NCBI GenBank assembly: GCA_946803715.1
Contig: CAMPET010000099.1
Location: 13,443-68,736 of the forward strand
Direction: 5' to 3'
From: Beroe ovata
Lineage: Eukaryota; Ctenophora; Nuda; Beroida; Beroidae
Length of the DNA stretch: 55,294 nucleotides
The translations under genes were made by a program, and so were the position numbers. Shown in pieces: positions 220 to 1,881 of this stretch. Positions within the stretch are counted from its first letter, which is position 1. Each line of letters begins with the position of its first letter. A model generated the notes under the pieces. That model had not been told where the DNA came from, did not search any database, and worked only from the letters and a program-made list of their open reading frames with translations.

Positions 220-1881
220 ATGGAATCACAGTGCTTAAAGTGTGTCACTCTTACTGAGCAGTGTCTAGAGCTTAAAGAGGAGGTGTCAAGACTCAACAGG
301 AAAATTGAACACCTCTTAGCATCACTAAGCTATGACAAGTGTGATTTTAGTTGTCAAGTATCACCAGTGACCAGTTGTCAGCTGATCCAATCAGATGAAT
401 GTGAAAGATCACAGACATTGAGTGACACTTCACTGATCAACCAAGCTGAAAATAACTCAAATCTCCCCCCTGAAAAATCACTAGATTCATCTGTTATTTC
501 CACAAATGGACAAGATGATGTTCTTCTGAATTTGTTCATGAACTCAGGGAACAATCCCTCTACAACATATGCAGTTCCACTGGTCAAATATCCTTTTGTA
601 CACATACCTGACCATCCTTTCTCAAAATTTGAATTTGAGAAAGTGGATAAGGAGATAGTGTATGACACTAGATTACACAACAGATCACTAGCCTTCTTTG
701 GTGAATTTGACTACTCTTATAACAATATCTCTCACAAGGCTCAGACAATCCCAGGAGAAGGTACATACTTGTACCAAATACTGGATCATTTGCGTGGAAT
801 TATACCTGACTTTCAGTATAACAGTCTATTGGTGACCAAGTACATGAATGGTTCAGATTATTTGGGGTACCACTCTGATGATGAGACCTCTATTGTTGGT
901 CATTCTGACATAGTGACCGTATCATTGGGTGGGAAACGCACGCTGAAATTTAAGAGCAAGTCTTGTGATGACAATTACCCAGAACAATCACTAGAGGTTC
1001 AGCATGGTGACATTTTTATCATGAGCAGGGATTCACAGGATTATTTTTCCCATTCTGTGCTAGCCGACTCCTCACTCATACCTAGAATTAGCCTAACATT
1101 CAGGCTCATCAAGCCCAACCATGGTCTTGATGAACTTACCAGTGTCTCACCTCAACAACCTACCACTAAGTCTGTTGCACCTGAACAGTCAAGTACCACC
1201 ACACCCAAACAATCAGTTCCTCCCATTGAGAATAATCTAAACCCCACATCCAAAAAACTGACTTTATACATCGGGGATAGTATGCTGAAGAACCTGAAGC
1301 ATGACAAAATGTCTTCTAGTTCCCAGAAGGCACAAGTGTTTTCGTACCCAGGTGCTACAGTATCGGGAGTACTCACCAAGTTAAAAGCAGACCAGTCTTT
1401 CAGGAACATAAACCCCGACACAGTTGGGAGAGTTTTTATCTTTTGTGGAGCTAATAACATAGACAAAATATTGCAAATTCCCTTCTCACAAAACGCTAAC
1501 TGGGTTGATCCACGCTCACAATTTATCACATCAGACTCAGTGCTAGAAAAGTCTAAATCAGAACTAGCAAATCTGGTCAGCTTCATCCATTCTTGGGCAG
1601 AGTCGGCGTCCATAAAGTTTGTTAACATATTGCCCCGTGCTAGTTATGTTCGCAATCAGGTCATCAACCAGTTAAACTCTTATGCAGAGCACCTCAGTTC
1701 AATTCACCCATACCTATCCATTGTTTCAACTGAGATTGACCGTAAACTGTTTTCATTTAAATCAGGGTTTAGGAAGGACAGTTTCTTTTCCAGTAATGGA
1801 TCTGACAATGTTCATCTCAATGAGTCAGGAATTGTAAGACTAGCTAAACATCTCAAATATGTTGCCCATAATACAGTTTAA
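220..1881 (+). CDS. LINE ORF1 protein: AlkB-like dioxygenase fused to SGNH/GDSL esterase
   Basis: The first ATG of the frame (220, context ACCATGG) gives 553 residues; the frame is open further upstream but without an ATG. Residues about 1-35 hold a Cys-containing, coiled-coil-like segment. Residues about 115-300 match the AlkB 2-oxoglutarate/Fe(II) dioxygenase core: H218-x-D220 in GYHSDDE, H278 in FSHSV, and the closing R289-ISLTF-R295, equivalent to the AlkB RxNxTxR motif. A Ser/Thr/Pro linker follows. Residues about 345-545 form an SGNH hydrolase: GDS with S354, the GAN block near 410, and the D529/H532 region in DNVHLNESG. In LINEs ORF1 proteins bind element RNA; the AlkB part suggests oxidative demethylation of nucleic acid, which is inference. 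All metal and catalytic positions appear intact. Confidence 0.85.
   Translation: MESQCLKCVTLTEQCLELKEEVSRLNRKIEHLLASLSYDKCDFSCQVSPVTSCQLIQSDECERSQTLSDTSLINQAENNSNLPPEKSLDSSVISTNGQDDVLLNLFMNSGNNPSTTYAVPLVKYPFVHIPDHPFSKFEFEKVDKEIVYDTRLHNRSLAFFGEFDYSYNNISHKAQTIPGEGTYLYQILDHLRGIIPDFQYNSLLVTKYMNGSDYLGYHSDDETSIVGHSDIVTVSLGGKRTLKFKSKSCDDNYPEQSLEVQHGDIFIMSRDSQDYFSHSVLADSSLIPRISLTFRLIKPNHGLDELTSVSPQQPTTKSVAPEQSSTTTPKQSVPPIENNLNPTSKKLTLYIGDSMLKNLKHDKMSSSSQKAQVFSYPGATVSGVLTKLKADQSFRNINPDTVGRVFIFCGANNIDKILQIPFSQNANWVDPRSQFITSDSVLEKSKSELANLVSFIHSWAESASIKFVNILPRASYVRNQVINQLNSYAEHLSSIHPYLSIVSTEIDRKLFSFKSGFRKDSFFSSNGSDNVHLNESGIVRLAKHLKYVAHNTV

Follow-up and report, generated by a model that had tools for sequence, protein, structure and literature searches.

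What protein does the first open reading frame of this Beroe ovata locus encode, and what could it do for the element that carries it? We looked at this question in a stretch of 55,294 nucleotides (hereafter the window). For its positions 220 to 1,881, the initial annotation had proposed the ORF1 of a LINE in which an AlkB-type dioxygenase is joined to an SGNH esterase.

Layout of the element and domains of its ORF1 protein

Bases 1-5138 of the window are most of one non-LTR retrotransposon (LINE), read on the forward strand. A spliced leader that matches that of Hormiphora californensis forms the outermost 5' part of the element that can be seen (1..43, 3' end ...AAATTTGAG) and is followed by the remaining 5' UTR (44..219, 176 nt between the leader end and the ATG). 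ORF1 (220..1881) runs from the ATG at 220 to the TAA at 1881 and encodes 553 aa comprising a helix, an AlkB domain, a linker and an SGNH domain, while ORF2 (1933..4890, first ATG at 1933) encodes an APE-type endonuclease and a reverse transcriptase (Exo_endo_phos and RVT_1). The 3' UTR (4891..5138) is ended by an assembly N at 5139, and in LINE copies on contigs C106, C32 and C77 the common sequence runs on past this break point. The contig also reads N directly upstream of window base 1. Within the window, assembly N marks were found at 5139, 14215, 14814, 18347, 32454, 36989, 42373 and 53107, and the sequences on the two sides of the one at 5139 may be discontinuous. The nearest solved relative of ORF2 by sequence is human L1 ORF2p (E 1.4e-10), and no clade-informative name was found among the best 120 of its 728 relatives. 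An esterase ORF1 stands ahead of an APE-RT ORF2, as in LINE type IV, both in the window and in locus L034, which has a 985-aa ORF2 behind ORF1. The LINE context given by the initial annotation is thus supported by an intact ORF2 with both domains, and we consider it nearly certain, as regards the identity of the parts, that the element is a LINE whose ORF1 protein fuses a helix, an AlkB domain and an SGNH domain. Elsewhere in the window, we noted a complete intronless 164-aa reading frame with no leader ahead of it (25522-26016, +), which we take to be of cyclophilin type, and a 454-aa frame (44233-45597, -) that by eye resembles a seven-helix GPCR.

The AlphaFold2 model of the ORF1 protein, computed as a monomer, contains one confident N-terminal helix at residues 6-37 (235..330, +), which is predicted to be probably a coiled coil. 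The start of the helix is flanked by a pair of cysteines, C5 and C8, each found in 34/43 aligned sequences. This alignment (A2) holds 43 of 49 sequences, leaving out the gene model P0035, which has a long additional tail, and the distant P0045-P0049. The linker (residues 300-342; 1117..1245, +) is mostly disordered in the model, with pLDDT <50 at residues 304-320 and 322-341, and its mean majority fraction in the aligned ORF1 sequences is 0.29, against 0.58 for the AlkB and 0.57 for the SGNH domain. When the window was compared with L033, dN was 0.28 for AlkB, 0.29 for SGNH, 0.45 for the N-terminal part and 1.04 for the linker (only 33 codons); compared with L035, the values were 0.48, 0.51, 0.71 and 1.06 (24 codons for the linker), respectively. 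We used dN alone and give no dN/dS ratio since dS was saturated in nearly all comparisons (NG86).

The AlkB-type 2OG-Fe(II) oxygenase domain (PF13532) spans residues 121-299 (580..1116, +), and structure comparison found the AlkB-type double-stranded beta-helix in the predicted model. The absence of such a match had been named in the initial annotation as grounds to abandon the reading; instead, the model and the profile match to ALKBH2/3 both recovered the fold. The motifs it had listed as complete (HxD at 218/220, H278, R289/R295) were confirmed as well. The iron ligands H218 and D220 and the acidic E222 lie in an HSDDE motif (871..885, +; each 42/43, the remaining cell being a gap), and the third iron ligand, H278 (1051..1053, +), is present in 43/43 sequences. 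R289, of the 2-oxoglutarate type, and R295, the AlkB-specific arginine, (1084..1104, +) are kept in 43/43 and 42/43, their roles being as stated for such arginines in PMC544882 (in part). Departures from the AlkB ligands across the 43 aligned sequences are gaps, apart from one R295H, and E222 is Glu in all 42 sequences that have a letter at that position. In the profile search, the domain matched ALKBH3 first (6.5e-25), with ALKBH2 also far above ALKBH5 (0.03), unlike the single-sequence search and both structure comparisons, which ranked ALKBH2 first. Of these two enzymes, ALKBH3 works on ssDNA and RNA, and ALKBH2 on dsDNA. The domain is non-basic, with a pI of 5.8 (6.0 for the human ALKBH3 segment), and therefore strong non-specific RNA binding is not obvious.

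The SGNH (GDSL-type) hydrolase domain occupies residues 343-553 (1246..1878, +). Its fold was found in the predicted model, and the esterase with S354, GAN and DxxH that had been read from the sequence holds up by both fold and catalytic residues, which are kept in 38-43 of the 43 sequences: S354 in 43, G378 in 42, G410 in 39, N412 in 41, D529 in 39 and H532 in 38. At the active site (S354, G410, N412, D529 and H532), departures are gaps except for two G410A and one H532N, and the Asp of the GDS motif varies, being D in 23 and S in 20 sequences. The window ORF1 protein gave no Pfam SGNH match at E up to 1. Among ten relatives of the same type that were scanned, five gave sub-threshold matches (13-25 bits against a cut-off of 32.9) and the other five gave none.

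The spliced leader and the template of copying

In window bases 1-43, 35/43 positions agree with the spliced leader published for Hormiphora californensis (PMC8527503, in part), and the alignment score of 27 compares with a mean of 6.9 and a maximum of 16 in 2,000 shuffles. A promoter motif like trypanosomatid Pr77 (excerpt of PMC8190864) was considered for these bases and dropped because they match the ctenophore leader. At least 45 matches to window bases 1-240 were found in the genome (40 of 270 candidates scored); 43 of the 45 span only 41-53 bases inside the first 53, and 33 of those 43 are at 100% identity. An exact 28-base leader core was present in 10 of the 12 fetched sites, with seven different bodies behind it, and the leader ended in TTTGAG at 9/10 core sites and in TTTTAG at 1/10. 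In genomic sequence, the leader therefore appears as in ctenophore trans-splicing, with about 43 nt, a sharp 3' boundary and unrelated bodies. No second leader was found in the window when up to 8 errors were allowed, the only match being bases 8-43. Three of the fetched sites are inverted leader pairs; among the genome matches, such pairs in some places overlap or are spaced 8-13 bp apart. Leader-headed copies with unrelated bodies were noted at L052 and L055-L063; one body is common to L056-L058 and another to L055 and L059, and these look like short repeated retrocopy families. L067 holds, by eye, a similar leader-headed copy in inverse orientation. The scattered leader-headed sequences are probably retrocopies of trans-spliced RNAs and, by analogy, the 718 genomic leader copies in Hormiphora (PMC8527503, in part) may partly be retrocopies too.

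We fetched 19 loci that match AlkB. The leader was present in five of them, namely L051 (the window's own place), L033, L035, L037 and L043, and was not found in the remaining 14, which include some host genes and some loci lacking the 5' part. In L033, L035, L037 and L043, the leader is separated from the frame by 183 nt, 182 nt, about 420 nt and about 970 nt, respectively. When the 300 bases ahead of the leader were compared, no similarity was seen between the four loci, which fits a leader that marks the 5' end of the insertion. From its place ahead of ORF1, we infer that the copied template is a trans-spliced mRNA.

Recurrence of the AlkB-SGNH pairing

An ORF1 search of the same genome (77.8 Mb, 534 contigs) gave 14 matches at E up to 1e-3. 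Four of them are long ORF1 copies of the same type, on C99 (the window), C133, C105 and C127, the fusions on C133/C105 and C127 sharing 41-54% of their amino acids with that of the window, and a decayed copy on C110 lies in two pieces with stops. L033 (C133) and L034 (C105) have 2,166 bases in common with 1 mismatch and could represent a single locus or else two young copies. For ORF2, at least 48 matches were found (46 of 180 candidates scored), at least nine of them at 60% identity or more (C99, C105, C345, C127, C248, C133, C100, C106 and C82), the remaining ones among those scored being at 26-47%. In the databases, 47 of 58 distinct relatives contain both domains (domain E <1e-3), a share biased toward fusions since the search favours proteins of similar length; the domain profiles were built from the same sequences they scored, and the E-values are for a small set. 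Eight relatives contain AlkB alone, two contain SGNH alone (238 and 242 aa), and P0057 contains both in reverse order (precomputed Pfam). One relative with the fusion, P0035, is named Mnemiopsis leidyi. None of 78 pattern matches in viral contigs encodes a relative.

Could the fusion have arisen from two genes joined by chance in one copy, or by assembly? The assembly does contain single-N joints, and the overlap of L033 and L034 ends at them. We rejected this explanation and leave it almost no probability, because the fusion is found on several divergent contigs and in the 47 database proteins, P0035 included; the initial annotation had named confinement to this copy as a ground for refutation. 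Its suggestion that the fusion may define a LINE lineage is supported by fold, profile and conservation data. The pairing recurs in many related elements and both active sites are preserved there, so it probably has a function in the element's copying.

Five further loci of four types contain AlkB and then SGNH in one frame (L038, L042, L043, L044 and L050). L038 has a weak PHD-like finger and a coiled-coil-like stretch, its next frame is endonuclease-like by eye, and P0045-P0047 are similar to it. L042 is a LINE whose AlkB-SGNH ORF1 (4001-5500, -) is followed by frames at 2718-3920 and 1676-2752 (-) that match ORF2 (E 2.8e-7 and 3.6e-5). The first part of this ORF2 shows an NPGP motif, presumably 2A-like. 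L043 and L044 are near-identical, with a Pro-rich linker; in L043 an N interrupts SGNH, and an RT frame (E 3e-20) follows some 3 kb downstream. The 1,144-aa frame of L050 (3077-6508) has an SGNH match over the Pfam cut-off and an AlkB match restricted to positions 119-180 of the 194 in the profile. AlkB has lost its N-terminal part there, and the HxD region with it. By eye, a piggyBac-like frame adjoins this fusion on the opposite strand. In P0057 (1,179 aa), SGNH comes first and AlkB last, and by eye the N-terminus contains a motif that we take to be 2A-like. This reversed order suggests that AlkB and SGNH probably came together on more than one occasion and that P0057 is probably an independent fusion.

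In a tree of 30 of 71 AlkB rows, 22 LINE rows were split from 8 cellular rows with a support of 76/91. In a wider tree (36 of 70 rows), the comparable split had 46/92, host ALKBH8 falling among the LINE rows and L040, P0057 and P0058 among the cellular ones; these rows (ALKBH8 having a very long branch) and others were left out of the 30-row tree, whose split therefore looks cleaner than the data. With so weak a split, a single AlkB capture by LINEs is only a possibility. A recent pick-up of a host ALKBH3 gene is not favoured since the LINE domains of the window type stand apart from L039, the genome's own ALKBH2/3-like protein, which groups with human ALKBH3 (100/96 in the 36-row and 99/93 in the 30-row tree). 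L040 contains an ALKBH3-like frame grouping with host ALKBH2/3 and a separate weak SGNH frame of 16.9 bits (1441-2115 and 2470-3141, both -). At one contig end, L036 combines a frame that is piggyBac transposase-like by eye with a truncated LINE-type AlkB frame (189-2948, +; 6902-7525, -).

Of 18 GDSL_2 matches in the genome, 12 exceed the cut-off and lie in frames of 208-425 aa that show no match to AlkB. Some of these may be esterase ORF1s and some host genes, and AlkB may thus be dispensable for other elements. Over 1,601 bases ahead of another, distant ORF2 (C226, 30% identity), no AlkB or SGNH profile match was found. There, where an AlkB-SGNH ORF1 would sit, L069 (C226:68000-69600) shows by eye a Cys-rich, PHD-like frame of about 207 aa.

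Possible roles and relation to known elements

From its sequence, the ORF1 AlkB domain is likely to be catalytically active on nucleic acid. E222 presumably corresponds to D135 of AlkB (AlkB numbering). Wild-type AlkB favours m1A and m3C, D135 contacts N6, and changing D135 to Ile allows m6A; methyl groups of the m1A/m3C type can stop reverse transcription, a block that AlkB lifts (PMC7968990, in part). This one residue and the nearest solved relatives make m1A/m3C, rather than m6A, the somewhat more likely substrate type. We lean slightly toward the element's own RNA or cDNA as the target, the role that the initial annotation had suggested. As a whole, our best explanation, to which we give a little under an even chance, is that the ORF1 protein forms a particle with a template demethylase and a lipid-docking part. 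The N-terminal helix, as a coiled coil, would assemble the protein on the element's mRNA; within the particle, the AlkB domain, as an active Fe(II)/2-oxoglutarate demethylase, would clear methyl groups of the m1A/m3C type, at which the reverse transcriptase of the element would otherwise stop; and the basic SGNH domain would attach the particle to anionic lipid, in the way shown for the esterase ORF1 of ZfL2-1. ORF1 proteins are presumed mRNA packagers, and esterase-type ones bind anionic lipid (excerpt of PMC3905857). More tentatively, clearing of RT-blocking methylation would allow the reverse transcriptase to reach the trans-spliced leader and make full-length copies, and AlkB would be an old module common to several LINE lineages.

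The domain might instead strip m6A from the element's RNA, which would so escape m6A-guided host control, as proposed for an orchid Gypsy element. The orchid AlkB binds RNA and is a demethylase in vitro (PMC9289625, in part), and viral AlkB domains match the ORF1 model in fold. We find this doubtful, given that ALKBH5 is a far weaker profile match than ALKBH3 and that E222 is constantly acidic where Ile permits m6A. Moreover, retrotransposition of human L1 benefits from m6A and is suppressed by ALKBH5 (PMC7873242, in part), which speaks against m6A erasure as a general reason. Reversal of alkylation in the cDNA or the nicked target during target-primed reverse transcription would agree with ALKBH2, which acts on DNA, as the best structural and single-sequence match, and with the ssDNA present in the listed ALKBH3 substrate structures. 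It is unlikely, as it leaves unexplained why AlkB is placed in ORF1, a presumed RNA packager, and not in ORF2.

As a structural nucleic-acid binder without catalysis, absent from other esterase ORF1s, AlkB would fill a gap, since esterase ORF1 proteins in Repbase are without a structural RNA-binding domain (PMC3905857, in part); L050 in addition retains AlkB without its HxD region. However, a mere binder need not keep H218, D220, H278, R289 and R295, which are conserved in the alignment and also in L036, L038, L043, L044, P0045-P0047 and P0057, and we regard this reading as rather unlikely. Finally, some AlkB homologues act on protein or tRNA, and the ORF1 protein could demethylate host RNA, DNA or protein with an effect in trans on surveillance. 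This is very unlikely: an ORF1 protein typically works in cis, on the mRNA that encodes it, and the nearest solved relatives are nucleic-acid repair enzymes.

Like the type IV ORF1 of CR1/L2 elements (zebrafish ZfL2-1, PDB 4c1a and 4c1b), the window ORF1 has a C-terminal SGNH domain that follows a helix, probably a coiled coil, and a linker of low conservation, ahead of an EN-RT ORF2 (PMC3905857, in part); the structure 4c1b appeared in the profile search, only at E 0.19. Unlike that type, it contains about 180 residues of AlkB between helix and esterase. This extra nucleic-acid-type domain sets it apart from the plain type IV members in Repbase (excerpt of PMC3905857). Among 448 Jockey-superfamily elements, the esterase type is described in two vertebrate groups only (PMC4120745, in part), and AlkB is unmentioned in the full text of that paper.

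The Phalaenopsis Ty3/Gypsy element also carries AlkB in a retrotransposon, but it is a plant LTR element with a separate extra ORF and no esterase mentioned in the part consulted (PMC9289625), whereas the window shows an ALKBH2/3-like fusion in an animal LINE ORF1. AlkB of plant RNA viruses is likewise found in an RNA-copying parasite, but in a polyprotein with methyltransferase, helicase and RdRp and not in a retrotransposon ORF1 (PMC544882, in part). These viral proteins matched the ORF1 model at Foldseek E down to 3.9e-18; the targets are long, with several domains, and superpose poorly overall. Bdelloid LTR elements and Athena, with a GDSL esterase ORF3, show SGNH capture by retroelements, independently of LINE esterases and with AlkB unmentioned there (PMC5408684). 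Human ALKBH3 and ALKBH2 are alike in fold, iron and 2OG ligands and the HSDDE/HRDDE site, but they are stand-alone host repair enzymes, and the LINE domains stand opposite eight cellular AlkBs with a support of only 76/91. AlkB in orchid Gypsy (PMC9289625) and plant RNA viruses (PMC544882) and SGNH in LINE ORF1 (PMC3905857, PMC4120745) are thus already published. The best-ranked literature matches, mostly outside subscription journals, included no AlkB or oxygenase in a LINE ORF1. Within the literature searched, AlkB within an esterase-type LINE ORF1 is a new combination of known parts.

With one small domain, standard substrates and a clear dead mutant, the system is testable. If template repair is true, it would mirror in nature what is done in the laboratory when AlkB is applied ahead of reverse transcription. 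The esterase-type ORF1 would gain a second enzymatic domain acting on nucleic acid, and base methylation of RNA or DNA would hinder or control the copying of LINEs strongly enough for them to keep a dedicated enzyme.
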